Part shown: positions 1 through 57,084 of the stretch, piece by piece
Numbering within the stretch: position 1 is the first letter of the stretch
Layout: each line of letters starts with the position of its first letter
Origin: an uncultured Verrucomicrobia subdivision 3 bacterium
GTDB lineage: Bacteria; Verrucomicrobiota; Verrucomicrobiia; Limisphaerales; UBA11358
DNA length: 64,000 nt
Reading direction: 5' to 3'
Assembly: GCA_903884535.1 (NCBI GenBank)
Contig: CAISEZ010000164.1
Span: 1-64,000 of the forward strand
The notes under the pieces: model-generated
Database searches by the model: none
What the model saw: only the letters and a program-made list of their open reading frames with translations
Told to the model about the DNA's origin: nothing
Program-made: the position numbers and the translations under genes

Positions 1-1181
1 ACATTGATCCCAGCCCCAGCGGCAGCGGTTACACCCGGCTCGAAGATTATCTCAACTGGCTCGCCGAACCGCATGGCATCGCGCTGACCACCAATGTGGA
101 CGTTGAACTGCGGCAGTTCACGCGCGGTTTCACGAATTATAATCCGGTTTTCTCCGTCGCGAATGCAACGAATGGAAGCGTTTCCTTGTCCGCCAACGGG
201 CTGCGCGCCCATTTCGTGCCCACGCCCGGCTACACAGGCCCGGCGAGTTTTAACTTCACCGTCACGGACTCGGACGGCAGCACGGTCACGCGGCTGATGA
301 ATCTTTTTTTCACGCCCAGCGCCACAACGGGCAACGTCATTTGGCGCGGCGACGCGCTGACAAACAACTGGAACGCGCTCGGCGATTTGAACTGGTTTGA
401 CGGCTACTCGCTGCTGTTTCCGTTTCACAACGGCGACACCGTCACGTTTGATGACACCGGTTTCAACGCGCCGAATCTGAACCTCACCGGCGCGCTCACG
501 CCCGCGTCGGTCACAATCAACGCCACACAAAATTACGTTCTCAACGGCAGCGGTTCGCTGAACGGCACGATGACGCTGGTGAAATCCGGCGCGGGAATTT
601 TCTGGCTGAACAACACTAATAATTATTCCGGCAGCACCACCGTGAGCAACGGCACGCTGCTCGTGAACGGCGCGTTGACCATCAGCCCCGTTTCCGTCTT
701 GAGCGGCGGTAGCTCGGGCGGCAGCGGACGTTTCGGCAATGGCCTCACGGTCGCCAGCGGTGGCTCGGTCGTCGCGGGCGACGGCATCGGCACGCCCGGC
801 ACGCTGGTCATCACGAATGCGCTGACCGAGAGCGGCGGCGTGATCAACCGCTTTGATTTGTCCGACGACCCGACGGGCTTGGTCAAAACGAACGACCAGA
901 TTCGCGTCGTCGGCAATTTGAATCTGGCCGGCGTGAACCCGATTCAAGTCAACCTGCTCAACGGCCCGCTGGCGAATGGCGATTACGTTTTGTTCACCTA
1001 CACCGGGGCGTTGAGCGGCAGCCTCGCGAATCTCACCGTCGTCGGCGCGAACGGCACCCTACGAGTCCGGTTGGCCAAATCGTGCTGCACGTGGACAACA
1101 CGCGCGCGCCGGCAAGTCTTGTCTGGGCGGGCGGACTCGGCGGGAACACGTGGGACGTGGGCACGAACGGCAACTGGATGA
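1..1181 (+). CDS. Secreted pectate-lyase-like protein, 5'-truncated, N-terminal fragment before a frameshift
   Basis: The reading frame enters from the left edge (codons from position 3) with no start in the window. It begins with GYTRLEDYLNWLAEPH, a segment I associate with the end of verrucomicrobial pectate-lyase-type enzymes, so the catalytic part would lie upstream. An Ig/cadherin-like domain follows (around SFNFTVTDSDGST, nt 240-290), then an autotransporter-associated beta-strand module (nt 330-1050) rich in NGSGSLNGTMTL-type strands. After about nt 1057 the frame turns into unrelated residues (KSCCTWTTRARR) and stops at 1181, while the homologous protein continues in the next frame from about 1058. 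The module aligns end to end with the first repeat module of the neighbouring PL4 gene. The repeats are certain; the catalytic class is a guess because it lies outside the window. Confidence 0.6.
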   Translation, partial: IDPSPSGSGYTRLEDYLNWLAEPHGIALTTNVDVELRQFTRGFTNYNPVFSVANATNGSVSLSANGLRAHFVPTPGYTGPASFNFTVTDSDGSTVTRLMNLFFTPSATTGNVIWRGDALTNNWNALGDLNWFDGYSLLFPFHNGDTVTFDDTGFNAPNLNLTGALTPASVTINATQNYVLNGSGSLNGTMTLVKSGAGIFWLNNTNNYSGSTTVSNGTLLVNGALTISPVSVLSGGSSGGSGRFGNGLTVASGGSVVAGDGIGTPGTLVITNALTESGGVINRFDLSDDPTGLVKTNDQIRVVGNLNLAGVNPIQVNLLNGPLANGDYVLFTYTGALSGSLANLTVVGANGTLRVRLAKSCCTWTTRARRQVLSGRADSAGTRGTWARTATG

Positions 1182-3025
1182 ACGGCGCGTTGCTCGACTT
1201 CTTTTACTTCGGCGACACCGTCCGTTTCGACGACTCCGGCCTGACGAATCCCGCGGTGAATCTCGTCGGCTCGCTCTCGCCCGCGGCGCTCACCGTGGAC
1301 TCGACGAACAACTACACGTTCAGTGGCACGGGGAAAATTTCCGGCACGGGTGTCTTCACGAAAACAAATTTCGGCACACTCACCATTACCACGACCAATG
1401 ACTTCACCGGCCCGGTGATCATCGGCAACGGTGTGCTCGCGGTGTCGCGACTTGCAAATGGCGGTAGCGCCAGTGGCCTCGGCGCGAGCAGTAGCGATCC
1501 GACGAATCTGGTTTTTTACGGTGGCACGCTGCGTTACAGCGGCGGTTCCGTCGCGACCGATAAACGCGCGACGCTGAACGGAAACGCCACGATTGACGTG
1601 GTCAGTGGCACGTTGACCGCGAACGGCACGTTGACCGGCAGCGGAGCGCTCATCAAAACCGGCACGGGCACGCTGGCAATTCCCGTGGCCAACACGAACA
1701 TTGGCGGCATCATTATCAGCAACGGCACGGTGAATCTCACGACGACCATCGCGCGCGACGGCGGCCTCGGCGCGGGCGCGACGACGCTCGCCGGTGGCAC
1801 GTTGCAATGCTACGGCTACGCGGGCAGCACCGCGACGGACTGGGGAACATTCAGCCACGGAATTTTTGTCGCCGCTGGCACGACGGGCAGTCTGCTCACC
1901 CCGCCGCGCTGCGCGCTGACGTTCCCGCTTACCGGCAGCGGCACGGTGAATCTCACGGTGGATTATGTGCGCGACGTTTTGAGCGGCAACTGGTCGGCGT
2001 TCACCGGCACGATCAATGTCACCGGGCGCATCGCCGCGTCGGAATTTCGCGTCGCGAATACTGCCGGCTACGGCAACGCCACCGTGAATATCACTGACAA
2101 CGTCATCATCACCCGCAACGGCAGCGCGACGACGATTTACTTCGGCGCGCTCGGCGGCACGAGCGGTTCGTCGGTTGGGCCGGGCAATTCAAGTTCGAGC
2201 GGCAGCAGTTACAGCATCGGCGGCAACAACACGGATGCAACGTTCGCCGGCACGTTGAAATCCGACGGCACGAATCCGTTTTTCAAAACCGGAACCGGTC
2301 GCTGGACGCTGACCGGCGCGAACACGTGGAACGGCGGACTGACCATCAACGGCGGGCTCGTCCTCGCGAACAATACGAGTGGTAGCGCGACCGGCACCGG
2401 CGTAGTCACGGTCAACACCAATGGCGCGCTCGGCGGCACCGGTTCGGCGAGCGGCGCGGTGACGGTCAATGCCGGCGGCGCCATTGCGCCCGGCAGCAAC
2501 GGCGTGGGCACAGTCTCACTCACGGGCGGACTGACCTTGAACAGCGGCGCAATTCTGAATATCGAAATCGGTTCGACCAATGACAAGGTTGCCGTCACCG
2601 GCGCGCTCGCGCTCAACGGTGTGATCAATGTGACGAATCTCGCCGGCTTCAGCGCGGGCACTTATCCGATTGTCACCTACAGCGGCGCGTTGAGTGGCGT
2701 TTTACCGGTCATCGGCAGCAAGCCAGTCGGCTACAGTGTGGCGGTGAACACCAATACCGCTGGTCAGGTGCGGCTCGTCGTGCAGACGCAGACGCCGCCG
2801 GTTTTCGGGAGCATCAAACTCGCGGGAACCAATCTGGTGTTCAGCGGCGCCGGCGGCCCGACGAATGAAAATTATTTCCTGCTGGCTTCCACCAATCTGG
2901 CGCTGCCGGTGGCGAATTGGACGAGACTTTACACCAATCAATTCAGCGCCACGGGCGCCTTTGCCTTCACCAACGCAGTCAACGCCGCCTGGCCACTCAG
3001 TTATTACCGTTTGCAATTACCGTGA
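1082..3025 (+). CDS. C-terminal part of the frameshifted lyase-like protein: beta-strand repeats and RLQLP-ending domain
   Basis: This 647-codon frame (GTG at 1082) continues the preceding fragment; the shared frame is already open from about 1058. It contains an autotransporter-associated beta-strand repeat module starting LVWAGGLGGNTWD, several shorter GSG/NGTL repeats (nt 1300-2560) and a C-terminal domain of about 65 residues ending SYYRLQLP. The same module order and terminal domain occur at the end of the PL4 lyase next door, so these tails are homologous. The repeats probably form a long secreted beta-solenoid stalk; no beta-barrel autotransporter domain is present. As a separate gene it would lack a signal peptide, so it is better read as the second half of one broken gene. 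Its stop overlaps a GTG codon that may start the next gene (GTGA at 3022-3025). Confidence 0.65.
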   Translation: MLHVDNTRAPASLVWAGGLGGNTWDVGTNGNWMNGALLDFFYFGDTVRFDDSGLTNPAVNLVGSLSPAALTVDSTNNYTFSGTGKISGTGVFTKTNFGTLTITTTNDFTGPVIIGNGVLAVSRLANGGSASGLGASSSDPTNLVFYGGTLRYSGGSVATDKRATLNGNATIDVVSGTLTANGTLTGSGALIKTGTGTLAIPVANTNIGGIIISNGTVNLTTTIARDGGLGAGATTLAGGTLQCYGYAGSTATDWGTFSHGIFVAAGTTGSLLTPPRCALTFPLTGSGTVNLTVDYVRDVLSGNWSAFTGTINVTGRIAASEFRVANTAGYGNATVNITDNVIITRNGSATTIYFGALGGTSGSSVGPGNSSSSGSSYSIGGNNTDATFAGTLKSDGTNPFFKTGTGRWTLTGANTWNGGLTINGGLVLANNTSGSATGTGVVTVNTNGALGGTGSASGAVTVNAGGAIAPGSNGVGTVSLTGGLTLNSGAILNIEIGSTNDKVAVTGALALNGVINVTNLAGFSAGTYPIVTYSGALSGVLPVIGSKPVGYSVAVNTNTAGQVRLVVQTQTPPVFGSIKLAGTNLVFSGAGGPTNENYFLLASTNLALPVANWTRLYTNQFSATGAFAFTNAVNAAWPLSYYRLQLP

Positions 3026-6000
3026 GAAAAATGCTCTCCGAACTTCTGCTGGCCGGCACCATTATTTTCGCGGCTGGAAATGTTGTTTTTGCCAACGATC
3101 CCGGCGGCGGCACGAATGGCTTGGGCGCGGATGTCACCCTGACGGACAACGGCAGTTCCGTCACGCTCGCCAACGGCGTCGTGACCGCGACGATTGACAA
3201 GGGCAGCGGCAAAATCACTTCGATGCTTTACGGTGGCCGGCAAGTCGTGCAATCCGGTGGCAATGTTTACTACAGCATGGATGGCGACGACGGTTACCGG
3301 GACATGAGCAGTTGCGCCTACGTCATCAAGACGAACACCGCCGACATGGTGGACGTGTCGTTCCGTCAGACCTGGAATGGCAGCCTGCCGTATGCGTTCG
3401 ACATCGAGGCGCACTGGGTTTTGCGGCGAGGCAATTCCGGCCTGTATGCCTACGCCTTGTTGGATCATCCGGCGAATTATCCGAGCACCACGAACGTCGA
3501 GTGGCGCTGCGTCTGGAAATTTCCGAACGATGTGCTGGAACGGACTTATGTGGATCCATTGCGGCACTGGCAGATGCCGTCCTCGGCGGACATCGCCGCC
3601 GCGCAGGCGACGAGCATCGCTGAAATCCTGAAAATTGTCACCGGCGTCCGCGCCGGTTATTACGACTCGAAATACGAATACTCCGCCGAATACGAAAACA
3701 TCGGCACCTGGGGGCACGCGAGCAGCGTCAACAAGATCGGCGCGTGGTTTGTGACGGGCAATTACGAATACTTCAACGACGGCCCGACGAAACAGGACCT
3801 GACGCTGTCGTGGGATTACAATGTCATCCACTTTGGCCGGAATCACTACACGCTCAACGACAGCAGTGTGACTTACGCGCTGACCAATGTGGCGTGGAAA
3901 AAAATCTACGGCCCGTTCCTGCTTTATCTCAACACCAACTCCGCCGGCGGCGATGCGCTGTGGGCCGATGCCAAGTCGCAGGTGCAGGCCGAGCATGGCG
4001 CATGGCCTTATGCGTGGCTGACCGGCAACACCAATTATCCGCTGGCCGACGCGCGCGGCGCGGCGAGCGGACGTTTCCTCGCGACGGATTCATTGAAATC
4101 TTCCGTCAGCACTTCCAACGCGTGGGTGGGCCTGGCTGACCCGTCGGTGGACTGGCAGTTTGACATGACGCATTACGAGTATTGGGTGCGGGCGGCGGTG
4201 GACGGTTCGTTTGCGATTCAAAACATTCGTCCCGGCACTTACAGGTTGCACGCCTTCACCGACGGCGAGATGGGCGAATACGCCTTGAGCAATGTCGTTG
4301 TGACGGTCGGCGCGACGAATGCGCTTGGCGATCTGACGTGGAGCGTGCCGCGTGTTGGAAATTATCTGCTGTGGGAAATCGGCACGCCCAATCGCACGGC
4401 CAACAAATTTCGCCACGGCACGAGTAATTACTACGAGGGTTTCATTTGGAACACGTTTGCGAGTGAATTTCCGAATCCCATCGAATACAACATCGGCGCG
4501 AGCGACTGGTCGATGGATTTGAACTACGTCCACGACTCCTACACCGTGAACGGCACCTCCACGGCGAGCGGCACCCGCAGCCAGTGGAAATGGCGGCTGA
4601 ATTTTCTCATGTCCAGCGTTCCGGCCAGCGGCAACGCCACGCTGAATTTCGCCTTTGCCAGCGTGCAAAACGGATCTTCGCTGGACGTTTATGTCAACAA
4701 CGAGGCCAGCGTATTCACAACGATTACGCCATCGTCGCCGCCCGCCGGCGGCAACGCGCTCGTCCGCGAAGGCATTCATGCGAAATACATCACACAGTCG
4801 GTTTCCATTCCGGTCGCAAATCTGCGCGTCGGCACGAACACCTTTTCGCTCATCATGACTTCGACGGGCAGCGATCAGAATCATTTCATGTATGACGCGA
4901 TCAATCTTGAATTGCCGGGCAAACCGCCGTTGCCTGCCGGATACGATTTGACCTGGAGCGGTGGCTCGGCCGCCAACGTCTGGGATTTGGCGACGACAAA
5001 CTGGTCGAGCAATTCCGTCGCGCGCATTTTTGCGAACGGCAACAAGGTTCTTTTCGACGACACCGGCCTGAACAATCCCGCCATCGTCCTGACCAACGCA
5101 TTGTCACCGGGCGCGATGACGATTTATGCGATGAAAAGTTTTACGTTCAACGGCAGCGGTTCGCTGACCGGCGCGATGACACTCGCAAAATCCGGGCCGG
5201 GGACATTGACGTTCAACAACACCAACACCTTCACCGGCACAACCTTCATCACCAACGGCGCGCTGGTCGTCAATGGCGCACTGAATTCCAGCGCCGTCAC
5301 GGTTCGGTTCGGTGCCAGTGTCGGCGGCACGGGAAAATTGGGCGGCGGATTGACCGCGCAATCCGGCAGCATCGTGCAACCGGGCATCGCCGTTGCGGGG
5401 ACTTTGGTGGTCAGCAATTCGCTGGTCGAGTCCGGCAGCGTGACAAACCTTTTTGATTTGTCGGATGACGTGACCGGCGTGGTGAAGCCAAACGACTTGA
5501 TCAAACTCGCCGGCAATCTCACCGTCAGCGGCACAAATATATTCCTCGTCAATCCGCTCAACGGCATGCTTGCCGACGGCATTTATCCGCTGATTCAATA
5601 CAGCGGCACGCTGACCGGCAGCGTGACTAATTTCGCGGTGCGCGGCGTCGTCGGCAAACCGTTCGCGCTCACGAATCTTTCAGGGACGATTGCGCTGATC
5701 GTCATCAGCAATCGTCCGCCAACAAATGTGGTTTGGCACGGCGGTCTGGCCGCAAATATCTGGGATCAATCCGGCACCAGCAACTGGCTCAACGGCGCGG
5801 CGCTTGACGTTTTTGCCTTCGCCGACAACGTGACGTTCGACGACACCGGCTCGACCAGTCCGGCGGTGAATTTGTCCGGCGATCTGACGGCGTCTTCGGT
5901 CACGGTGAATGCCTCGGTGAATTATACTTTTTCCGGCAGCGGCGGCATCGTGGGCGATGGCGGCCTGACGAAACTGAATTCCGGCACGCTGACGGTGCTG

Positions 6001-8187
6001 ACGACGAACAAATTTACCGGGCCGGTGTTGATCAGTGGCGGCGCACTGGCGGTCAACGCACTGGCCAACGGCGGTTCGCCCGGCGCCATCGGCGTGTCCT
6101 CCGCTGACGCCAGCAATCTGGTTTTTCAATCCGGCGGCACGCTGCGCTATCTCGGAACAACGGCGGCTTCGGATCACGGGGCCACGCTCAATGCCGGGGG
6201 CGGCACGATTGAAGTCACGAACAGCGTGGCCAACCTGACGCTGGCCGGAACATTGACCGGCGGCGGCGGGCTGGCAAAAATCGGGCCGGGAACATTGACG
6301 CTGGGCGGCTCGAATGATTATTCCGGAGGCACGCTCATCAGCGCAGGGATTTTGCAGATGGGCGCGGGGGCTAGTTCCGGCACGCTCGGCAGCGGCACGG
6401 TGACCAACAATAGCGTGCTCACATTCAGCCGCGCCGATGCCGTCACGATTTTGCCGGTCATCACCGGCAGCGGCAGCGTCGTCAAGAGCGGGGGCGGTTC
6501 GGTAACGCTGGTGAACGCCAATTTCTACACCGGCGGCACCACCAATTCGTCCGGCATTCTGATGATTTCCAACAACACCGCACTCGGTAGCAGCGTGCTT
6601 ACTTTTGTCGGCACCTCCGGCTCCGTGCAACTTGCCAACGGCGTGACGGTCACAAATAATTGGAATATTCCGGGCGCGACGGTGGACCTGATGCTCGATT
6701 GTCCCAGCGGCACGGCCACCTGGGCGGGGAATGTTTCCGTTTCCGGCGGCGGCTCATTCCGCCCGGGAACCTCATCCGGCAATGGCACGCTGGTTTATAG
6801 CGGCACGGCCAACATGGGCGGCGCGAATTTCATCGTGCCGCGCGGCAACGTGGTCATCGCGTCGAATGGAATCATTTCCGCCGGCGGAACCGTGTGCGCG
6901 CTGGGCCGCTCCAGTTCCGGCAGCGGCACGACGTTCGTCGCCAGGGACAACGCGAGCCTGACATTTGGTTCCGGCTTCATGCTCGGTCACACCAGTTCGG
7001 GTTCGCCGTATCCAATTGTTTTCACGATTCAGGACAACGCGGTCGTTTCGTGCGGCGTCAGCAATCTCGACCTGCATAATTCACCCAACGCCTCGGCCAC
7101 GACGACGCTGAACCTGAATGGCGGAACGCTTTCCGCCAGCGGCTTCAAGAAATCCCAGACCGGTGCGAATCAGACTTCCACGGTCAATTTCAACGGTGGC
7201 GTATTGAGAGCGTCGGCTGCCAACGCGGCATTTTTAGACACGCTTTCCGGTTTGACCGCGGATGTTTCAACCGGCGGCGCAAAGATTGACGACGGCGGAT
7301 TCGCGCTCACCATTCCCGCAAATTTAATCCACGATCCCGCTCTTGGCGCAACGCTGGACGGCGGCTTGACCAAGCTCGGTGCCGGAACGCTCACGTTGTC
7401 CGGAACCAACACCCTGACTGGTAATCTGTTGGTGAGCAACGGCACTTTGGCGCTGGCCGCCTTTGCGCGGTTGACCAACCTCGCCAACATTTTCATCGGC
7501 ACCGGCGCGATTTTTGATGTCAGCTTGCAAAACCCTCTTTACACCCTTGGCAACGGACGGACGATTTCCGGCAGCGGCGCGGTCAAGGGCATTTTTTATT
7601 TGGGCAGCGGTGCCGTCCTTTCGCCGGGCGGCCCTGGCAACCAGGTGGGAACGCTGACCTTCAGCAATAACCTGCGGATAGGCTTTGGTCCGAACGCGCT
7701 TAATTTCAAGCTCGGCTCCACCAATAACAGCGACCGGGTTTTTTGCGGAACGCTGGAGAGTTCCATTCAGTCGGTCGTGAATGTCACGCCGCTGGCGGGT
7801 TTTGGCCCGGGCACTTACAAATTGATTTCCTACAATTTGTTCACTGGCGATGCCCCCACGCTCGGCGCGGCTCCCGCCGGCTACGCCTACAGCCTCATCA
7901 AGACCAGCTACGGTGTCGGCGAAGTGCAGCTCATCGTGACCAGCACGAACACCACGCCGCCGGCCTTTGGACCGCTGTATTTCACCAACGGCATGCTGAA
8001 TTTTAACGGCAGCAACGGCGTGGGCGGTGGAAATTTTTACCTGCTCGCGGCTACCAATGTTTCAACCCCGATGAGCAATTGGGTGCGGCTGCTGACCAAC
8101 CAGTTTGACGGCTCCGGCAATTTCAATTTCACCACCAACACGGGCGCAGGTCGGCCGCAGAATTTCTTCCGCTTGCAACTGCCTTGA
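3022..8187 (+). CDS. Rhamnogalacturonan endolyase, PL4 family, with beta-strand repeat stalk
   Basis: Secreted enzyme of about 1721 residues predicted to cleave rhamnogalacturonan I by beta-elimination. A signal peptide (MRKMLSELLLAGTIIFAAG) starts from GTG 3022 or ATG 3031; GTG gives the charged N-region and overlaps the previous stop. Residues about 27-370 match the PL4 catalytic domain (VTLTDNGSSVTLANGVV, NVEWRCVWKFPNDVLERTY, GTWGHAS). A fibronectin-like domain follows at about 375-440 (FAIQNIRPGTYRLHAFTDGE), then the CBM-like third domain at about 443-630 (GNYLLWEIGTPNRTANKF), as in family members. From about 640 to 1640 there are autotransporter-type beta-strand modules, and the last 65 residues form the FFRLQLP-ending domain shared with the upstream protein. 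PL4 enzymes are usually far shorter, so the stalk is the unusual part. It converges, 8 bp apart, with the esterase operon. Confidence 0.88.
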   Translation: MRKMLSELLLAGTIIFAAGNVVFANDPGGGTNGLGADVTLTDNGSSVTLANGVVTATIDKGSGKITSMLYGGRQVVQSGGNVYYSMDGDDGYRDMSSCAYVIKTNTADMVDVSFRQTWNGSLPYAFDIEAHWVLRRGNSGLYAYALLDHPANYPSTTNVEWRCVWKFPNDVLERTYVDPLRHWQMPSSADIAAAQATSIAEILKIVTGVRAGYYDSKYEYSAEYENIGTWGHASSVNKIGAWFVTGNYEYFNDGPTKQDLTLSWDYNVIHFGRNHYTLNDSSVTYALTNVAWKKIYGPFLLYLNTNSAGGDALWADAKSQVQAEHGAWPYAWLTGNTNYPLADARGAASGRFLATDSLKSSVSTSNAWVGLADPSVDWQFDMTHYEYWVRAAVDGSFAIQNIRPGTYRLHAFTDGEMGEYALSNVVVTVGATNALGDLTWSVPRVGNYLLWEIGTPNRTANKFRHGTSNYYEGFIWNTFASEFPNPIEYNIGASDWSMDLNYVHDSYTVNGTSTASGTRSQWKWRLNFLMSSVPASGNATLNFAFASVQNGSSLDVYVNNEASVFTTITPSSPPAGGNALVREGIHAKYITQSVSIPVANLRVGTNTFSLIMTSTGSDQNHFMYDAINLELPGKPPLPAGYDLTWSGGSAANVWDLATTNWSSNSVARIFANGNKVLFDDTGLNNPAIVLTNALSPGAMTIYAMKSFTFNGSGSLTGAMTLAKSGPGTLTFNNTNTFTGTTFITNGALVVNGALNSSAVTVRFGASVGGTGKLGGGLTAQSGSIVQPGIAVAGTLVVSNSLVESGSVTNLFDLSDDVTGVVKPNDLIKLAGNLTVSGTNIFLVNPLNGMLADGIYPLIQYSGTLTGSVTNFAVRGVVGKPFALTNLSGTIALIVISNRPPTNVVWHGGLAANIWDQSGTSNWLNGAALDVFAFADNVTFDDTGSTSPAVNLSGDLTASSVTVNASVNYTFSGSGGIVGDGGLTKLNSGTLTVLTTNKFTGPVLISGGALAVNALANGGSPGAIGVSSADASNLVFQSGGTLRYLGTTAASDHGATLNAGGGTIEVTNSVANLTLAGTLTGGGGLAKIGPGTLTLGGSNDYSGGTLISAGILQMGAGASSGTLGSGTVTNNSVLTFSRADAVTILPVITGSGSVVKSGGGSVTLVNANFYTGGTTNSSGILMISNNTALGSSVLTFVGTSGSVQLANGVTVTNNWNIPGATVDLMLDCPSGTATWAGNVSVSGGGSFRPGTSSGNGTLVYSGTANMGGANFIVPRGNVVIASNGIISAGGTVCALGRSSSGSGTTFVARDNASLTFGSGFMLGHTSSGSPYPIVFTIQDNAVVSCGVSNLDLHNSPNASATTTLNLNGGTLSASGFKKSQTGANQTSTVNFNGGVLRASAANAAFLDTLSGLTADVSTGGAKIDDGGFALTIPANLIHDPALGATLDGGLTKLGAGTLTLSGTNTLTGNLLVSNGTLALAAFARLTNLANIFIGTGAIFDVSLQNPLYTLGNGRTISGSGAVKGIFYLGSGAVLSPGGPGNQVGTLTFSNNLRIGFGPNALNFKLGSTNNSDRVFCGTLESSIQSVVNVTPLAGFGPGTYKLISYNLFTGDAPTLGAAPAGYAYSLIKTSYGVGEVQLIVTSTNTTPPAFGPLYFTNGMLNFNGSNGVGGGNFYLLAATNVSTPMSNWVRLLTNQFDGSGNFNFTTNTGAGRPQNFFRLQLP

Positions 8188-8195
8188 AGCGGCAA

Positions 8196-9428
8196 TCAAT
8201 TTCCCAACGGCTTCACGCTTGAAACGGCCGGACTGGCGGGCATTTCAAACGTGGCGACGGCATCCGGGTGCGCCGGGTCAAAATTGAAATTGTCCACGAC
8301 GAATTTTGCCAGGGGCAGTTTGGCCTGCTGAAGGCCGAGAACCACGCACTTCGCCAGTTCGTAGCTGCCGTAATTGTTGTGGTGCGTGCCATCCTGAAAC
8401 GCCTTGTCCAAGTCTCCCCCGAGCGCCTGGTAAAAAATCCGGCTCAACGCGTTCAGATCAATCAGCGCGCAATTTTCTTCCTTCGCCACGGCGCGCACGG
8501 TTTGCGGATATCCGGCGAGCGTGTCTTGCTCCACGCCGTTTTTCCGCTCCATCGAAGTCACCAAAACCGGCGTGCCGCCGAGCGAGCGCGTCCGAGCCAC
8601 CACTTTTTTTAAATTGGCTTTGTAGGTTTCCAGCGCATTCGTTCCTTTATCCTTCTGGTCATTGTGGCCAAATTGCACGAACAAATAGTCGCCCGGCTGC
8701 ATCAGGCTGAACACTTTTTCAAACCGCTGGGCGCGGAGTGAATTGGCAATCGTCTCGCCGGATTCAGCATGGTTGGCCACGGCGATTTCCGGTTTGAAAA
8801 AACGCGGCAGCATCTGGCCCCAGCTATTCCACGGCTCGGCCGGCTGGTCACACACCGTCGAGTCGCCCAGCAGAAAAACCGTCGGCACCCTGGCCGGTTC
8901 GATTTCCAACGACCGCAGGCTGGGGTGCTCGCCATTGAATTCCAGCGTCAGTTTTTCATCCCAATCCCAAATCTCGCTGGCTTTTTCGCGGGGCTTCAGA
9001 TGCACGTGGTTGCTCGCGGAGATTTCCGGCGTGCGCAGGTTCACGATGAACGTGCGCGACTCGGATTTGCCGGCGGCGAGGTGGGTTTTTTCCAGCATCA
9101 GTCGCCGCAGCTCGGCCTTCACCGTGGTTGTGGATTCCTGCGTGCCGCCCAGCTCGGCGGTCACGCGGTAATTCCCCTCCGGCAATTTGGCGGAAAAATA
9201 AAATGGCTGGCCGCTGGCCGCCTCGCTGTCGTTGCTGGCCGCACCCGGCTCAAAACCGAAACCGGTTTCAGCCGAATAAATATTCGTCGGCGAAACGTGA
9301 ATCCAGCCGGCCTTGGCGGCGTTGCTGAAATCAAACTTGAAACTGCTTGGCGCGCCCCATGCCGCCGCCCCAGTGGTCAACAAAACAGCCGAAATAATTC
9401 CCGGTAAGAAGTGATGATGGCGATTCAT
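8196..9428 (-). CDS. SGNH/GDSL esterase, rhamnogalacturonan acetylesterase type (CE12), with N-terminal beta domain
   Basis: Secreted hydrolase of 410 residues predicted to remove acetyl groups from rhamnogalacturonan. A signal peptide (to about residue 25) is followed by a beta-rich accessory domain (27-180, FKFDFSNAAKAGWIHV). The SGNH domain then shows FLLGDSTVCD with nucleophile Ser190, ESGETIANS (block II), FGHND at 253-257 (block III) and DGTHHN with Asp346 and His349 (block V). All catalytic residues are present. It is the last gene of the six-gene minus-strand pectin operon, and its ATG overlaps the stop of the preceding esterase by 4 nt (ATGA), which suggests translational coupling. 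The accessory domain distinguishes it from the two shorter paralogues upstream. Confidence 0.88.
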   Translation of the reverse strand: MNRHHHFLPGIISAVLLTTGAAAWGAPSSFKFDFSNAAKAGWIHVSPTNIYSAETGFGFEPGAASNDSEAASGQPFYFSAKLPEGNYRVTAELGGTQESTTTVKAELRRLMLEKTHLAAGKSESRTFIVNLRTPEISASNHVHLKPREKASEIWDWDEKLTLEFNGEHPSLRSLEIEPARVPTVFLLGDSTVCDQPAEPWNSWGQMLPRFFKPEIAVANHAESGETIANSLRAQRFEKVFSLMQPGDYLFVQFGHNDQKDKGTNALETYKANLKKVVARTRSLGGTPVLVTSMERKNGVEQDTLAGYPQTVRAVAKEENCALIDLNALSRIFYQALGGDLDKAFQDGTHHNNYGSYELAKCVVLGLQQAKLPLAKFVVDNFNFDPAHPDAVATFEMPASPAVSSVKPLGN

Positions 9429-10321
9429 GGGTTGGCTTTGGCTGGGTTGGTTGAAATGATTTGGCGGGCGGGTTTGTAAGCTTCGATGGTCCTGCCCTTC
9501 GCAGAAAAGTAATTTTCCAGCGGATTGCCCGGCAAGCTTTTCAGGCCGGCGATGACCTGCGCCGCGTTGAACTGCGCGCCGCTGTCGGTTGTGTGCGTGC
9601 CTTTGTCAGCGAAAAATGTCGCGACCGTTTCCGCGCCGATTATTTTGTAAGCGTCGGTGATGACCATGGTGAGATCGAAATAAAGCGCGCCGTTATTTTT
9701 CGCCACCTGTTGATCCCACGCGGCAAGATTTTCAAAATCGCGGCCGGTTTCCCAGCGCTGCTTGTGCGGAATCGGCGAGCAAATGATCGCGGTCACTCCT
9801 TTCGCCTTCGCGTCGGTGACGAACTTCGCCATATACCAGCCGAAGGTGTGGACGAGTTCCTTCGTGCCGTCGGGCTTGGTGTCCTCCACGGTTTCGTCGC
9901 CGATACCTTTGCCGTCCACCCGGCCTTTCATCGCCGGATCGCCGATGCGCCCCTGATCATTGTGCCCAAACTGGATGATGACAAAATCGCCGGCCTTAAT
10001 GGCGTCCGCGACTTTTTGCCAGCGGCCTTCGGTGAAATAAGTCCGCGCGCTGCGCCCGCCGATGGCGTGGTTGACCACGTTAATTTTATTTGTGTCAAAG
10101 AACGGCGCGATGCGTTCGCCCCAGCCCCACAAGCCCGCGCCGGTGCCGCCGCTGCGCACCGTCGAATCGCCGACGATGTGAAACGTCGGCAGTGAAGCAT
10201 TCGCGACTTTTTCGGCCGCGACTTTCGACGCGTCCACCACGGGACGCTCGTCCTCGGCGGCGAACAGAATTCCGGTTGCAAAAGTCAAAATAATAACCAG
10301 CGGGGCCAGACAGTTTTTCAT
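9425..10321 (-). CDS. SGNH/GDSL esterase, rhamnogalacturonan acetylesterase-like (CE12 type)
   Basis: Secreted esterase of 298 residues with a signal peptide (MKNCLAPLVIILTFATGILFA). The core begins FHIVGDSTVRSGGTGAG with nucleophile Ser53, then GGRSARTYF (block II), FGHND at 118-122 (block III) and ADKGTH with Asp239 and His243 as the likely triad partners. The predicted role is deacetylation of pectic polysaccharide in the periplasm or outside. It closely resembles the next upstream gene over the whole length (both have HTFGWY and a run ending in IP after the central strand), so the pair looks like a tandem duplication. It overlaps the downstream esterase by 4 nt and lies 4 nt after its upstream paralogue. 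Confidence 0.87.
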   Translation of the reverse strand: MKNCLAPLVIILTFATGILFAAEDERPVVDASKVAAEKVANASLPTFHIVGDSTVRSGGTGAGLWGWGERIAPFFDTNKINVVNHAIGGRSARTYFTEGRWQKVADAIKAGDFVIIQFGHNDQGRIGDPAMKGRVDGKGIGDETVEDTKPDGTKELVHTFGWYMAKFVTDAKAKGVTAIICSPIPHKQRWETGRDFENLAAWDQQVAKNNGALYFDLTMVITDAYKIIGAETVATFFADKGTHTTDSGAQFNAAQVIAGLKSLPGNPLENYFSAKGRTIEAYKPARQIISTNPAKANP

Positions 10322-10325
10322 AAAA

Positions 10326-11252
10326 TTATTTCGGTTCGGCGTTTCCTGTGGCTGGCCGCGTCGGGCTTAAATCGGCCGGCCTGACGCCGTTCGCATTTTC
10401 CGAGAAGAACTTCGCCAGCGGATTTTCCGGCAAAGCTTTCAGCCCCGACACGACACACAATGCGTTCGTCTGCGCGCCGGCCAGACTCGTGTGCGGCCCG
10501 GCATTGGCGACGAACAATTCCTTCACCTTTTCCTGACCGAGCGAATCGTATTGCCGCGCGATGATTTCGTGGAGGTCAATGAACGGCGCGTGCGCGGCCT
10601 TGGCCGCATTCGCGGCCCAGACGGCGGCACTGTTGGCTGCCGGTCGTGCCACGGTGCCATTGTGCCAGGTGTTGCGGGGAATCAGCGAGCAGATCACCGG
10701 CGTGGCACCTTTCGCGCGGGCCTCGGCGATCATTTTCATTTCATACCAGCCGAAGGTGTGAACCGTCTCGAACTTTTTTGTAATCTGGTTCGTGATGTCC
10801 TGCGACTCGTCGCCGATGCCGTGCAATTCGCCGCGCGCGCGTGACGCGTCGTTGACCTGCCCGCCGTTCGTGCCGAACTGCATGAGGACAAAATCACCGG
10901 GCTTGATGAGCGCCAGTGTGCGCGGCCAGAAATCGCGGTAAAAGGTGCGGCTGGTCGTGCCCCCGAGCGCACGGTTGACCACGTTGATTTTGCTCGTGTC
11001 AAAAAACGCCGCGAGCTGGTCGCCCCAGCCCCATTGTCCGCCGGTGCCGTCGCCGCGTCCGTTGCGCACGGTGGAGTCGCCGACGAGAAACAGCGACGGC
11101 AGATTGGTGTTCGCCGGAAAATTTTCGCGCCGCGCGGAAATCTGCGTTTCATTTTTCGGCTGGCCGTCAACAAACTGGGCAAAACTGCTCGTTGGCAGCA
11201 ATCCAGAAAAGACTGCCATGCCGAGAACGATCAAGAGCTGGTGTGGTTTCAT
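10326..11252 (-). CDS. SGNH/GDSL esterase paralogue with substituted catalytic residues
   Basis: Secreted 308-residue member of the same CE12-like family (signal peptide MKPHQLLIVLGMAVFSGLLP...FA). The nucleophile block LFLVGDSTVRNG (Ser60) and the block II motif GGTTSRTFY are intact. Block III reads FGTNGG where the paralogues have FGHND. The last block reads VANAGPH, so Asn249 replaces the Asp of the Asp-His pair while His253 is kept. SGNH enzymes can tolerate loss of the Asp, but two changes together make reduced or altered activity plausible. It is the fourth gene of the pectin operon, 16 nt after the sialate-esterase-type gene. Either a specialised or a decaying duplicate would fit. Confidence 0.82.
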   Translation of the reverse strand: MKPHQLLIVLGMAVFSGLLPTSSFAQFVDGQPKNETQISARRENFPANTNLPSLFLVGDSTVRNGRGDGTGGQWGWGDQLAAFFDTSKINVVNRALGGTTSRTFYRDFWPRTLALIKPGDFVLMQFGTNGGQVNDASRARGELHGIGDESQDITNQITKKFETVHTFGWYEMKMIAEARAKGATPVICSLIPRNTWHNGTVARPAANSAAVWAANAAKAAHAPFIDLHEIIARQYDSLGQEKVKELFVANAGPHTSLAGAQTNALCVVSGLKALPENPLAKFFSENANGVRPADLSPTRPATGNAEPK

Positions 11253-11268
11253 TTGGTTTTGGAATTAT

Positions 11269-12870
11269 TCACTGGTTCAAATCAAACTTCGGCTCGTCCG
11301 AGCGAAATTGCACAGCCGGCAAACCCGCTGCGTTGTAAAGATGGCCGCCATCAGGAAAGTTCACCCAGGCATAGCGCACGGCGACGGGCGTGGAGATTTC
11401 CGGGCTGCTGACGATGACCGTTTTGCCGTCAATCTTCGCCTCGGCGGAAACGAACTTTCCGTCCGCACCCGCGAGGGTGAACCATTTCAAAGTTCCGTCG
11501 CGCGCAACCAGTCCGTCCGCGTGCGAAAAGTTCACGCGGATGGAATCACCCTCGACTTTCATGGATTCATACACCGGACCGGAAAATTCAATCTTGCGGC
11601 CATAAACCTTTGCCAGCGCGATGCGCGACAGGCGGTCGCCCACGTCCTGTTTATTTTTCGGATGGACATTTTTGCGCTCGCCGATGTCCGTTGCAACCGC
11701 CATGCCGGTGTTTGGCAATGAAAGCAACGTCGCCTGGGCCTCGCGGACTTGCGGGCTGTTGCTCGCGGCTTCCTGGCCCGCGAGTTGGACGATGTAAAAT
11801 GGAAATTCGCCTTCGCCCCACCGTTTGCGCCAGTCGCGGATGAGCGTCGCCTGCACGCGCGGATAAAGTTCGATGCCGCCTTTGCTGGCATCAACGATGG
11901 ATTCGCCCTGATACCAGATGCCGCCGCGGATTGCGAACGGAATGATGGGGTTGATCATGCCGTTGAAAAGCACAGTCGCGTTGTGCTGATCTTGCACTGG
12001 ATCACGCGGAGTGCCGCCGCCGCGTCGGCGTCTGCCGGTGACTGTGTTGGTAGAACTGCCTGCGGTGTTTGTGCTGGCTGCGATGTCATTCGTGGCCGAC
12101 ACGTCTTCGGAACGCGGCGGCGCGACGACCGGCGGCGGGTTGGTGCGAAAATGTTCCACCGCCGCGTCGAAGCGTTCGAGCATCGGTTTCAATTTCAAAT
12201 CCCTGGCTAGGGCTTCACGGCGAATCCACGCCTCGGCTGTGCTCGCGCCAAACGCCTCGGTGATGACACCTACCGGAACTTTAATTTCACGTTGCAGATC
12301 GCGCGCAAAAAAATAACCGACGGCGGAAAACGCCGGCGCGTTTTCCGGCGTGCAAACTTTCCATTCGCCGCCAACATTTGCCTGCGGCGCGAAGGCTTTT
12401 GCCGCCTCGCCGGTGAACATGCGGATGAGCGGATAATTAGCGGCGGCGATCTCCGCTCCCTCGTTTGTGACGCCTGCGAAATATTTCACTTTTTTCGACA
12501 TGGAAAAATCCATGTTCGACTGGCCGGATGCGAGCCACACTTCGCCGACGAGCACGTCTTCGCATTTTAGATTTTCGATCGGCGATTGATGATTGCCGGT
12601 GACGACGAGTTCACGCGGTTCCGCACTGGCTTTCATCGGTTTGAGCTTCACGTTCCATTTGCCATCGGCATCCGCCGTCGTGGAAAGTTTTTGGCCGGCA
12701 AATTCGACCGTGATGGGTTCACCGGGTTCGGCGGAGCCCCAAACTGGGACTTTCATTTCGCATTGCAAAACCATGTGGCTGGTAAAAGGGCTGGCCAGCT
12801 TCACCTCGGCTAGCAGCGGGCCGGTTGTCAGCAACAGGGCGACCAGGGTGGATGAAAATGTTTTATTCAT
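11269..12870 (-). CDS. Sialate O-acetylesterase-family carbohydrate esterase (SASA domain)
   Basis: Secreted esterase of 533 residues; signal peptide to about residue 21. The family signature WLASGQSNMDFS carries nucleophile Ser118. IRGGIWYQGES lies in the second half, and KNVHPKNKQDVGDRL contains the probable catalytic His. In bacteria this family often deacetylates plant polysaccharides rather than sialic acid, and the operon context (GH2, GH53, CE12) points to acetylated pectin side chains. An unusual low-complexity insert of about 45 residues (from about 245; Ser/Thr/Asn/Ala-rich, then RRRRGGGTPRD) precedes the VLFNGMINPIIPFAIRG strand. The spacing to its neighbours (9 and 16 nt) supports co-transcription. 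Confidence 0.85.
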   Translation of the reverse strand: MNKTFSSTLVALLLTTGPLLAEVKLASPFTSHMVLQCEMKVPVWGSAEPGEPITVEFAGQKLSTTADADGKWNVKLKPMKASAEPRELVVTGNHQSPIENLKCEDVLVGEVWLASGQSNMDFSMSKKVKYFAGVTNEGAEIAAANYPLIRMFTGEAAKAFAPQANVGGEWKVCTPENAPAFSAVGYFFARDLQREIKVPVGVITEAFGASTAEAWIRREALARDLKLKPMLERFDAAVEHFRTNPPPVVAPPRSEDVSATNDIAASTNTAGSSTNTVTGRRRRGGGTPRDPVQDQHNATVLFNGMINPIIPFAIRGGIWYQGESIVDASKGGIELYPRVQATLIRDWRKRWGEGEFPFYIVQLAGQEAASNSPQVREAQATLLSLPNTGMAVATDIGERKNVHPKNKQDVGDRLSRIALAKVYGRKIEFSGPVYESMKVEGDSIRVNFSHADGLVARDGTLKWFTLAGADGKFVSAEAKIDGKTVIVSSPEISTPVAVRYAWVNFPDGGHLYNAAGLPAVQFRSDEPKFDLNQ

Positions 12871-12879
12871 GGGGAAAAA

Positions 12880-13959
12880 TTATTGGCCGGCCTTGCGTGG
12901 TAGCGGCAGCGTGTATTTGTCAAAGACGTTCAGCACGGGCAGCGAGTTTCCGTTTTCGTCAAAAAATCCGCGGGCACCGCGGTTGCCCGTCGCCGGCTCC
13001 CACCAAAAGATTCCTTTGCAACGTTCGCCGGGCGTTTGCAGCGCGATGCGCGTCACCTCGTCCAGAAAATCGCGCTGGCCTGCGGGCGATTCAGGAAACG
13101 GCGCGGCGTGGCCCTTGAAATCATTCCCCGCGCGCCAGTTGTAGCCTGTCTCCACAATCATGACCTCTTTGCCGTAAGTTTCCGCCGCGAGCGCCAGGTT
13201 CTCGCGCAAGTCCATCAGCGTCCCATGCCAGCGCGGATAATATGAAAGCCCGATGACATCGTAGGCAATACCACGCCGTTTCAAATTGTCGAAAAACCAT
13301 TTCGTCTTCGCCACATTGCCGCCGGTGTCGGTGTGGATCATGATGCGCGGCGGGGGATTGGTGCCGCGCCCGGCGGCGACGCCCCGGATGCCGGCGCGAA
13401 GATAATCGGAGAAATTGTCCCAGTGCGCCGGCAGTTTTCCGTCCGGCCACAACATGCCCGCTGTGACTTCGTTCCCGATTTGCACCATGTCCGGCAGCAC
13501 GCCCGCGTCGCGAAAGGCGGCGATGGTGTCGCGCGTGTATTCAAAAACTTTTTTCGTTCGAGCCTTGTGCGATAAATTAGTCCACGCGCCCGGCGTCGGC
13601 TGCTTGCCGGGATCGGCCCAGGAATTGGCGTAGTGAAAATCGAGCAGGAATTTGTAGCGGAGCTTTTTTGCGTCCTGCGCCATCGCCAACGTGTATTTCA
13701 AGTCGTTCGGTAGATTGTTGCTCACCGGCTCGACGAAGAGGCGCAGGCGAATCCAGTTGTAACCGTGGTTTTTGAAAATGTGCAAGCCTGGCAGCGCATT
13801 CGTGCCGTCCTTGAAAACAACGCCGCGCGCCTCGGCCTGCTTCAAAAATGACAAGTCCGCGCCCAAAGCAAACTCCGAAGCCTGCGAAGAATTTGCGCCG
13901 ACGCAAAAAATAAAAATTACCGCGCCGAATCGGGCGGCAAGCTGGCGGGCAATTTTCAT
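12880..13959 (-). CDS. Arabinogalactan endo-beta-1,4-galactanase, GH53
   Basis: Secreted 359-residue enzyme predicted to cut beta-1,4-galactan, a side chain of rhamnogalacturonan I. I chose ATG 13959 because the longer frame opens with TTG and because MKIARQLAARFGAVIFIFCVGA makes a good signal peptide. The TIM-barrel domain covers nearly all of the mature protein (FALGADLSFLKQAEARGVVF, NWIRLRLFVEP, FLLDFHYANSWADPGKQ). VQIGNEVTAGMLWP contains the acid/base Glu, and EVMIVETGYNW the nucleophile Glu. Length is normal for the family. It is the second gene of the operon, 47 nt after the GH2 gene and 9 nt before the SASA esterase; with the GH2 enzyme it would convert galactan to galactose. Confidence 0.9.
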   Translation of the reverse strand: MKIARQLAARFGAVIFIFCVGANSSQASEFALGADLSFLKQAEARGVVFKDGTNALPGLHIFKNHGYNWIRLRLFVEPVSNNLPNDLKYTLAMAQDAKKLRYKFLLDFHYANSWADPGKQPTPGAWTNLSHKARTKKVFEYTRDTIAAFRDAGVLPDMVQIGNEVTAGMLWPDGKLPAHWDNFSDYLRAGIRGVAAGRGTNPPPRIMIHTDTGGNVAKTKWFFDNLKRRGIAYDVIGLSYYPRWHGTLMDLRENLALAAETYGKEVMIVETGYNWRAGNDFKGHAAPFPESPAGQRDFLDEVTRIALQTPGERCKGIFWWEPATGNRGARGFFDENGNSLPVLNVFDKYTLPLPRKAGQ

Positions 13960-14006
13960 TTGGAGACGCAATTGATTTTTAAACCATGCCAGAATGCCGC
14001 GCTAAT

Positions 14007-16388
14007 TCATCTCGTCAGTTCTGGCGATGCCTTGAGCGTGATGGCGTCCGGTTTCAATCCGGCGGCGGCCGCGGTCAATGTGATTCGGTTGGAAGCCGCG
14101 GTGGCTTTCACAAAAGCCACGGCTTCACCTTGGAACGCGTGGCGCGATTCCGCCTGAAACTGTTCGTGGCCGCTGTTGTCCGCGTTGTCCCCGGCGGCGA
14201 TCGCGCCCGGCCCGGTAACTTTAAATGAGATTAAATCAGCCGCCCGCGGAACCTCGACGCCTTTCGCGTCCACGATTTTCGCGCGCACGATGGCAATGTT
14301 ATCAAATCCCGGCGAAAGTTTTTTGGTTTCGGTGGACAAAATAATTTTCGCCGGTTTGCCGGCGGTGACGAGTTCATCCGTCGCGACAATTTTTCCGTGG
14401 TTGCGCGCCACGGCCTTGATTTTTCCAGGCGCAAACGGAACATTCCAAAGGCGCGGCGCGGCGTCGGCATTGATGGTTTTCGCGCCCAGCGATATTCCAT
14501 TCAAAAATAATTCCACTTCCTTGCAGTTGGAATAAATTTCCACGTTCTCGTCGTGCGGCGACAGATGTTTTGGCGTCCAGTCGGAAAACAAAACCTGCGT
14601 GTGCCGTTCCTCCGCGCCGTAGCCGGGATCCGTCGGCATCAAATCCGTGTTGGCCACGCGGCGCGCGATGGCGACCATCGGCGTGGCGCACCACCAGCTC
14701 TCGCGTTCGCGACCGAGCGGACGAATGGCCCCGGTGCGATCCAGCAAGCCGGAGCCGTGGCCGACCACCGGCCAGCGCCGCGACTCGCCGAGATAATCAA
14801 TGCCCGTCCATAAAAACTGGCCGGCGTAAGCGGCGTGGTCGCGCACGGCCGTCCACTGGTTGCGGTCATGCGTGTTTTCCGTGCCGACAATTTTGCGGGC
14901 CGGCTTTTGCTCGTGCGCGGCGAGAATTTCCTTTTCGCGATAATTTTGTCCGACCACGTCGAGCATATCCGCGAGGCCGTCGTCATAATCGTGGCTCACG
15001 TTCGGTCGGAACAACGCCTGTGTCACCGGCCGCGTCGGGTCGGCTTCGTGTGCGACGGCGACCAGGTCCGACAAAATGCGCTTGGCCTTGTCCGCCTGCG
15101 GCGTGTCGTGAATCTCGTTACCGACACTGTAAAGAATGACGCTGGGATGATTGCGGTCGCGCAGAATGGCGTCGCGCTCGTCCGTTTTCGACCACGCATC
15201 GAAATACAAATGATAATCGAACGGATTTTTTGCGACCGTCCAGCAGTCGAACATTTCGTCCATCACGAGAAAACCGAGTCGGTCGCATAAATCCAGAAAT
15301 TCCGGCGCAGGCGGATTGTGCGCGGTGCGAATCGCATTCACACCGAGCGATTGCAAGGTTTTCAACCGCGCCTCCCAAATCGCCAGCGGCACCGCCGCGC
15401 CGAACGCGCCGCCGTCGGCGTGCAGGCAAACGCCGTTGAGCTTGAAATTCTTTCCATTCAGCCAGAACCCGGTGTCGGCTTCAAAATGCGCGTCGCGGAT
15501 GCCGAAGGCGGTCGTCTGTTCATCCAAAACTTTTCCGCTGTCACGAATCTCACTGACGACGTGGTAAAGTTCCGGCGCGTCGAGATTCCAGAGCTGCGGT
15601 TTTGAAAAAACAATTTGCGGCGAGAATTTTTCCGCCGCACCGGCGGCAATCTGCCCGTCCATTTGAACCACGGCCACGGTTTTTCCGCTTGGCGAAATCA
15701 GCCGTGTTTGCAGGGTGATTTTGCGGTCGGAAGCGGATTCGTTGGTCAGGGTTGCTGCAATGCTCACCGTCGCGGCGGCGGCGGAAATTTTTGGCGTGCT
15801 GACAAACACGCCATTTTCCGCGAAGTGAACTGGCGCGGTCGCTACAAGCCGCACATGCCGGTAAATCCCCGCGCCGGCATACCAGCGCGACGCCGGCTGC
15901 GCCGAAGTGTCCGCGCGGACGGCGAGGACATTTGCCGCGCTGTCGCCGAAATTTAGCACCGTGCCGGTCAGTTCGTAGCGGAAACCAACGTAGCCATTCG
16001 GGCGGCGGCCGAGGTGATGGCCGTTAATCCACACGTCGCTGTTGGCCATCACTCCATCGAACTCCACAAACACGCGCCGCCCCAAAAAATCATTCGGTAA
16101 TGAAAAAGATTTGCGATACCACGCCACGCCGCTCGGCAGAAATGCGCCCGCGCCGCCGGCCAGATTCGTTTCCGCGAACGGCCCGGCGATGCTCCAGTCG
16201 TGCGGCAGGCTGACCGTTTTCCATCTTGAATCATCAAAGCCGGAATCTTCAGCGCCGGGCGCATCACCTTGGAAAAAATGCCAACCGGCGTCAAAAGGTT
16301 CCGAGACACGGGCCGATGCCGCCGGGGCATTGATCAGTATCAAGGCAAAAGCCAGGGCGGCGAGCGAAACAGTCGGCGTGATTTTCAT
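14007..16388 (-). CDS. Glycoside hydrolase family 2 protein, probable beta-galactosidase
   Basis: Secreted enzyme of about 793 residues. ATG 16388 starts a clean signal peptide (MKITPTVSLAALAFALILIN); in-frame starts at 16406 and 16433 would add a non-signal-like prefix. Domain order is the GH2 one: sugar-binding jelly roll (SEPFDAGWHFFQGDAPG, VSLPHDWSI), immunoglobulin-like domain, then the TIM barrel with LNGKNFKLNGVCLHAD, NAIRTAHNPP, SVGNEIHD (acid/base Glu) and KIVGTENTHDR (probable nucleophile Glu). C-terminal domains include a DUF4982-like segment (VELFLNGISLGAKT) and an Ig-like domain. It is the first gene of the six-gene operon and probably removes terminal galactose from oligosaccharides released by the GH53 enzyme. 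Other exo-beta-glycosidase specificities in GH2 cannot be excluded. Confidence 0.85.
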   Translation of the reverse strand: MKITPTVSLAALAFALILINAPAASARVSEPFDAGWHFFQGDAPGAEDSGFDDSRWKTVSLPHDWSIAGPFAETNLAGGAGAFLPSGVAWYRKSFSLPNDFLGRRVFVEFDGVMANSDVWINGHHLGRRPNGYVGFRYELTGTVLNFGDSAANVLAVRADTSAQPASRWYAGAGIYRHVRLVATAPVHFAENGVFVSTPKISAAAATVSIAATLTNESASDRKITLQTRLISPSGKTVAVVQMDGQIAAGAAEKFSPQIVFSKPQLWNLDAPELYHVVSEIRDSGKVLDEQTTAFGIRDAHFEADTGFWLNGKNFKLNGVCLHADGGAFGAAVPLAIWEARLKTLQSLGVNAIRTAHNPPAPEFLDLCDRLGFLVMDEMFDCWTVAKNPFDYHLYFDAWSKTDERDAILRDRNHPSVILYSVGNEIHDTPQADKAKRILSDLVAVAHEADPTRPVTQALFRPNVSHDYDDGLADMLDVVGQNYREKEILAAHEQKPARKIVGTENTHDRNQWTAVRDHAAYAGQFLWTGIDYLGESRRWPVVGHGSGLLDRTGAIRPLGRERESWWCATPMVAIARRVANTDLMPTDPGYGAEERHTQVLFSDWTPKHLSPHDENVEIYSNCKEVELFLNGISLGAKTINADAAPRLWNVPFAPGKIKAVARNHGKIVATDELVTAGKPAKIILSTETKKLSPGFDNIAIVRAKIVDAKGVEVPRAADLISFKVTGPGAIAAGDNADNSGHEQFQAESRHAFQGEAVAFVKATAASNRITLTAAAAGLKPDAITLKASPELTR

Positions 16389-16417
16389 CTGGGTTTGGAC
16401 GGCCATTGTCCGGCAAA

Positions 16418-16439
16418 GGTGACGCGGGCACAAGTCACC
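16418..16439. promoter_or_regulatory. Inverted repeat in the divergent GH2-operon/UDG promoter region
   Basis: GGTGAC and GTCACC form a perfect 6-bp inverted repeat separated by 10 nt. It sits 30-51 nt upstream of the GH2 start and about 53 nt upstream of the oppositely oriented glycosylase start, where an operator for the pectin operon would be expected. The spacing does not fit CRP, and no regulator gene is nearby, so the function is a guess. Confidence 0.3.

Positions 16440-54083: not shown

Positions 54084-54102
<19 letters not shown>
53416..54102 (+). CDS. OmpR/PhoB-family response regulator
   Basis: Transcription factor of 228 residues. The receiver domain (1-120) has acidic residues Glu9-Asp10-Asp11, phospho-acceptor Asp53 (LLVLDVMLPGASGYD), and the conserved Thr/Lys (LMLTAKG, DYVTKPFGVREL). 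The winged-helix domain (about 132-228) includes ELTAKELKLLQVFQAHAGEV and GTTRTLDQVIVQLRKKLG. It overlaps the kinase gene by 4 nt, so the pair is almost surely cognate. Its last 19 nt overlap the end of the convergent sulfatase-maturase gene. The 11-bp repeats upstream of the operon are a candidate target. Confidence 0.94.
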
Positions 54103-55409
<1,307 letters not shown>

Positions 55410-55522
55410 GCGGCGAAAGCATACGCGCTGCGCCGGCCCGGCGCAAACCGCGCGCCGCCGCCGAACGGGCGACGGTGATAGTCTTTCTTGCCGTCGTCGC
55501 CGCGGCTGCTAAGTTTTGAACC

Positions 55523-57046: not shown

Positions 57047-57084
57047 GTTAAATCTGTTCGTTCTTAACGCCCGAAAATAAAGCC

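Follow-up and report, generated by a model that had tools for sequence, protein, structure and literature searches.

An apparently undescribed C-terminal domain on two tandem proteins of a Verrucomicrobiota genome as a candidate sorting or retention tag

The 64,000-base window analysed here (bases 1-64000 of contig C164, from a 3.9-Mb genome in 165 contigs of an uncultured Verrucomicrobia subdivision 3 bacterium) opens with two genes that lie in tandem on the plus strand and whose products, protein 1 and protein 2, end in the same type of domain of about 78 residues, referred to here as the FYRL domain (Table 1). The start codon of protein 2 is ATG 3031, which lies five bases past the stop codon of protein 1, rather than TTG 2917, and the protein begins with a signal peptide. 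Protein 1 is spread over two frames (3-1181 and 1082-3025), and other proteins of this genome with the domain, for instance those at L066 and L180, likewise look frame-split, which may reflect assembly errors. The pair had been taken for two adjacent lyases in a preliminary description made from the sequence, and this holds for protein 2, a PL4 enzyme. The lyase domain of protein 1 is not visible because the window begins at base 1 of the contig, and only about 40 residues are left ahead of its Big_9 domain. However, the homologue at L039 of the same genome shares this join and bears a pectate lyase domain at its N-terminus (9buj, E 6e-21). Since proteins with the join of protein 1 bear an N-terminal pectate lyase, both window proteins are probably lyases.

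Both proteins carry two beta-repeat modules, M1 and M2. The M1 pair shares the pattern WxG(G/D)...W...FDD(T/S)G and is 49% identical, whereas the M2 pair is 33% identical overall and 51% identical across the first 244 residues. The M1/M1 and M2/M2 scores are about twice those of any M1/M2 pair, and as like modules outscore unlike ones the two proteins are collinear, which bears out the module order first described. The terminal domains are 45% identical over 77 columns, with an alignment score of 190 against a mean of 31, a standard deviation of 6 and a maximum of 72 for shuffled sequences. PATR/autotrns_rpt (TIGR02601) repeats are found in both stalks, and the PF03797 autotransporter barrel is found neither in these proteins nor anywhere in the genome by a search that was positive in controls. 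The common C-terminal domain and the autotransporter repeats without a barrel are thus as the preliminary description had them.

Table 1. Positions of the two tandem genes and their parts in the window
Feature	Position	Strand	Remark
Protein 1, 5' part (frame 3): tail of the off-contig domain, Big_9, first beta-repeat module	3..1181	+	5' end cut by contig edge
Protein 1 module M1 (WRGD...W...FDDTG)	333..1058	+	one PATR repeat at 576-665
Apparent frameshift between protein 1 reading frames	1050..1081	+	real or assembly error
Protein 1 module M2 (WAGG...W...FDDSG)	1115..2782	+	PATR at 1355-1444, 1649-1738, 2285-2356
Protein 1 C-terminal FYRL-type domain	2783..3022	+	end ...SYYRLQLP; stop codon 3023-3025
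Protein 2, 1718 residues: signal peptide, PL4 rhamnogalacturonan lyase, two beta-repeat modules, C-terminal domain	3031..8187	+	
Protein 2 signal peptide MLSELLLAGTIIFAAGNVVFA	3031..3093	+	by inspection of sequence
Protein 2 PL4 lyase	3112..4908	+	Rhamnogal_lyase (~3112-3621), fn3_3 (4117-4323), CBM-like domain III (4369-4908)
Protein 2 module M1	4945..5700	+	PATR at 5182-5271
Protein 2 module M2	5725..7941	+	PATR at 5965-6054, 6271-6357, 6478-6561, 7366-7455
Protein 2 C-terminal FYRL-type domain	7942..8184	+	end ...NFFRLQLP; modelled, pLDDT 90.6

The FYRL domain is not restricted to these two proteins. In this genome a two-row profile matches 41 times, almost always at the terminus once the locus is read to the stop codon, and a 42-row profile matches 100 times. 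For 95 of the 99 confident copies (E below 1e-6), the stop codon follows after at most 13 residues, and for most of them after 1-5, whereas in the same data none of 11 PATR copies and none of 21 immunoglobulin (Ig) F-G motifs is terminal. These counts may be lower bounds, as the hidden Markov model (HMM) missed the PATR-protein ends FFVRVSAN, FLRISAE and FYKLVHP. One copy (G000:C48:57721-57900) has an in-frame TAG in a frame of 86 residues and probably belongs to a decaying gene. Signal-peptide-like N-termini are found on 65 of 84 complete open reading frames (ORFs) by a crude rule that undercounts, and a transmembrane-like stretch within the last 45 residues on none of the 95 terminal proteins; a basic tail is likewise not present. 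The carriers have a median length of 890 residues (range 180-4855) and very diverse cargo, comprising Ig arrays, NHL propellers, PATR stalks, alginate lyase, kumamolisin-type proteases, GH32, PL4, a PL11-type lyase, RCC1, FG-GAP, multicopper oxidase and amylase, together with the NCBIfam choice-of-anchor and PEP-CTERM-protein families ScyF, choice_anch_C, choice_anch_Q and GloVer. Hence, the signal peptides and many enzyme classes anticipated from the two window proteins are borne out. With about 100 copies on unrelated classes, a display system confined to these lyases and their stalk falls short as a description; most carriers are without PATR repeats, so that the sharing of a stalk is incidental. 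Nor is the domain invariant across the genome, its members being about 18-57% identical to the first row of their alignment.

Conservation over 177 sequences is concentrated at P5, Y29, an S/T-T-N-L motif, W42, G54, F/Y70-Y71-R72 and the last residue. The tryptophan is kept in 170/177 and P5 in 140/151, and the last column holds 2.6 bits, compared with less than 1 bit in each of the two columns ahead of it. Proline is the last residue in 110 of 162 sequences, followed by Gln (24) and His (7), and where it is not Pro the residue is mostly Gln, His or Asn. In this genome 51 of 93 carriers end in proline, versus 10 of 111 background ORFs (Fisher p 6e-13), and the last residue is never Ala, Val, Ile, Ser, Thr, Gly, Asp or Glu. 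The codons of the end residues P, Q and H (rarely L or R) found here lie one second- or third-base change from proline codons. Because S, T and A lie one first-base change from P yet are unseen as the last residue of carriers, selection seems to act on the last residue itself. Such a fixed chemical end is expected of a C-terminal recognition signal and is not needed by a spacer or a binding module.

Even with the threshold relaxed to E 10, each Pfam or NCBIfam 20.0 model matches at most a single one of the 42 members. Under that threshold, none of them is matched by PF00041 (fibronectin type III, FN3), by the type IX secretion system (T9SS) C-terminal domain (CTD) models or by TIGR02595, and for the GlyGly-CTERM/rhombosortase signal there is neither an NCBIfam match among the members nor a transmembrane stretch. 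The terminal domain recognised in the preliminary description is real and apparently undescribed in Pfam, NCBIfam and the open literature searched, and its class had been sensibly guessed from two copies.

Modelled with AlphaFold2 from the 42-row alignment, the domain of protein 2 is a beta sandwich with a mean predicted local distance difference test (pLDDT) score of 90.6 and strands at residues 8-9, 13-15, 18-24, 31-37, 48-54, 61-66 and 75-79. Foldseek gave no match against the PDB at E 0.001 or better. VIA gave Z scores of 6-7.6 to FN3- and Ig-like domains, none reaching 8, with FN3 chains at Z 6-7 aligned over 68-77 residues; such middling values may mean a common arrangement only. The predicted fold is FN3/Ig-like, and Foldseek and VIA name no specific family; T9SS CTD structures are not among the matches listed by either. 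In 93-residue FN3 scaffolds (TENCON) the VIA alignment spans residues 1-75, which we take to be strands A-F. The profile also has weak matches to genuine FN3 domains inside the same proteins, with FYRL falling on FN3 strand F (YYYVV); the true FN3 domains run on past YYYVV into strand G, whereas the terminal domain stops there. Thus, the domain is predicted, from model and alignment, to be an FN3-like sandwich of strands A-F without strand G, the protein ending on strand F.

Across the phylum, the domain is found in 110 of 289 genomes drawn from Verrucomicrobiota, a survey in which up to 18 candidates per genome were scored, so that copy numbers are floors; all 29 of its best loci are terminal. 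A scan of named genomes gave 47 loci, and every record that names a phylum is Verrucomicrobiota. These loci hold 57 terminal copies, mostly in subdivision-3 genomes, and 15 other matches, mostly weak and to ordinary internal FN3 domains. The database relatives with the highest identity to the domain are likewise Verrucomicrobiota, mostly subdivision 3/Limisphaerales, and phages and plasmids gave no tblastn match. Five genomes of the same genus hold 16-71 copies each and three of the same order 17-52. In the loci read in close relatives, which are best-scoring matches and so favour typical copies, 35 of 38 copies are terminal and the other three stand ahead of a terminal last copy in tandem arrays.

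On PATR stalks, the domain alternates with PEP-CTERM. This genome encodes two exosortases and about 25 PEP-CTERM proteins, which are short and none of which carries the FYRL domain; four PEP-CTERM loci (L312, L313, L318 and L329) have an FYRL-ending gene nearby. Of the seven PATR-stalk proteins of this genome read to the stop codon, six have the domain as their end and one has FYKLVHP, whereas in other, sister lineages 16 of 26 such proteins end in PEP-CTERM, one in the domain and nine otherwise. In G216, two PATR genes are neighbours, one ending in FFVRVSAN, which is similar by eye and missed by the model, and the other in PEP-CTERM. This alternation on PATR stalks, together with the choice-of-anchor cargo, is the pattern expected of a domain in an anchor or sorting-signal role. 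An exosortase is present in all 110 genomes with the domain versus 105 of 179 without it, which is suggestive of a shared route, though clade structure confounds the link. However, exosortase is not expected to act on the FYRL domain itself, since the domain is without a transmembrane helix.

As to the transport machinery, a GspD-like secretin was considered as the co-occurring gene and rejected as non-discriminating, being present in 283 of the 289 genomes, this one included. T9SS membership by sequence was likewise rejected, as no CTD model matches. For SprA there is no match in this genome and one sub-cutoff fragment in the 289, the control genomes all being without SprA. A 2026 study of an alginate-degrading member of the Verrucomicrobiota indicated type II secretion and counted 67 PulG-like proteins (PMC13274419). 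Type II secretion is a plausible route, and one with no link to the FYRL domain.

Elsewhere in the window, the two lyases are followed on the minus strand by a pectin cluster (8196-16433) whose products, named from sequence, are three SGNH/GDSL esterase-like proteins, a sialate O-acetylesterase-like protein, a GH53-like galactanase and a GH2-like beta-galactosidase. An FYRL end was seen by eye on none of their printed C-termini. At 54084-59544, a radical-SAM sulfatase-maturation-type enzyme adjoins a sulfatase and a GH115-like alpha-glucuronidase, again named from sequence.

We hypothesize, as the best reading and one somewhat more likely than not, that the FYRL domain is a C-terminal sorting or retention tag of Verrucomicrobiota that works in a T9SS CTD-like manner while being unrelated to that domain. 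Judging from the N-termini, the cargo would enter the periplasm through a Sec signal peptide. The last ~78 residues would then fold into a compact FN3-like sandwich in which the final strand F (FYRL.LP) forms the physical end of the protein, and the exposed edge strand and near-fixed terminal residue could be docked by an outer-membrane export or retention machine. Large unrelated proteins such as lyases, propellers, Ig arrays and PATR stalks may thereby be brought to, or kept at, the outer surface or matrix. The observations behind this proposal are the terminal position, the diversity of the cargo, the conserved end residue and the alternation with PEP-CTERM on PATR stalks. A more specific and doubtful version is that the open-edged FN3 fold, lacking strand G, would receive the completing strand from a dedicated outer-membrane receptor or translocon of Verrucomicrobiota, the domain being the signal of an undescribed secretion or retention pathway with up to ~100 clients per genome.

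Several points weigh against a tag. The preliminary description had expected strict C-terminal occurrence and named internal copies as grounds for refutation; about 95% of copies are terminal, and about 4-5% overall are internal, in this genome at L046, L052, the first copy in L053 and one in L158. A further clear internal copy is found at L231, among the loci of the named genomes, and tandem arrays of three (L361, G289:C2:202000-206500) and two (L362, G289:C7:15000-17500) closely similar copies, with the last at the stop codon, are recent duplications of the domain. Nineteen of the 84 ORFs fail the crude signal-peptide rule, several being fragments or having other start codons. No dedicated machine was found for the domain among exosortase, GspD and SprA. 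For the co-occurring conserved transport gene anticipated earlier, exosortase is at most a candidate, as it has its own PEP-CTERM substrates in the same genome, is present in genomes without the domain and is confounded by clade structure; the sorting or anchoring reading is partly supported, by the terminal position, signal peptides and diverse cargo. The surface or matrix destination of the carriers is putative and one that we infer.

FN3-like modules often bind sugars or merely space domains, and the FYRL domain could instead be a substrate- or matrix-binding accessory module, an FN3-like carbohydrate-binding module on secreted enzymes that leave by general type II secretion without any tag. 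The predicted FN3-like fold, a weak, partial HMM match to a glucanase/chitosanase accessory domain (2rv9, E 4e-4), the many carriers that act on polysaccharides and the near-ubiquity of GspD-like secretins, this genome included, would fit such a module. We regard it as unlikely, for the strict terminal position and conserved last residue would be unexpected, many carriers are not carbohydrate-active and the cargo overlaps with that of choice-of-anchor families. It is less likely again that the domain has no address function and serves long beta-rich secreted proteins as a stabilising C-terminal folding nucleus or cap. Such a role would suit the compact, confidently predicted fold and the position behind beta-repeat stalks in the window proteins, and the terminal proline could be a stability feature, a Pro/Gln end perhaps resisting exopeptidases; but the domain also sits on propellers, Ig arrays and short proteins of 180-300 residues, and the same stalk elsewhere bears PEP-CTERM, a sorting signal without a capping fold. 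Finally, high sequence divergence and recent tandem duplications are what a neutral, lineage-expanded cassette spread by gene-end recombination, without common function, might leave behind. Its retention of the tryptophan, P5, F/Y-Y-R and the final P, and its presence across the phylum, make this very improbable.

Verrucomicrobiota are major degraders of plant and algal polysaccharides, and little is known of how their very large enzymes and adhesins cross the outer membrane. A domain in this position on 16 to 100 proteins per genome marks out the proteins likely to be surface-directed or exported, allows 'hypothetical' ones to be assigned to a class and gives a handle on the machine that would read it.

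Among known systems, the T9SS CTD of RgpB is a C-terminal Ig-like sandwich whose signal resides in its last strands, which can also swap (PMC4804311). Like that domain, the FYRL domain is, as predicted, a beta-sandwich of about 80 residues at the very C-terminus of numerous unrelated proteins with putative Sec export. The resemblance is one by analogy only; the CTD is a complete seven-strand Ig fold whereas the FYRL domain is predicted to be FN3-like, without strand G, and ends in FYRLxxP. With PEP-CTERM (Haft 2006, PMC1569441) it has in common the many copies per genome, the C-terminal position on diverse signal-peptide proteins, the phylum and types of cargo. In contrast to PEP-CTERM, it is a predicted folded domain of ~78 residues without a PEP motif, transmembrane helix or basic tail, and the two are never on the same protein in this genome. 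Internal FN3 domains (PF00041) show a weak profile similarity and may share the predicted fold, whereas the FYRL domain is terminal, ends after strand F and is unmatched by PF00041. PATR (TIGR02601) proteins have the same repeat as both window stalks, which are without the PF03797 barrel, and classical type Va autotransporters differ in the C-terminal PF03797 beta-barrel, which is not present here. Finally, while the FYRL anchor matches no described model tested, the NCBIfam choice-of-anchor families are alike in their cargo: domains that are paired there with alternative C-terminal anchors carry the FYRL domain here.

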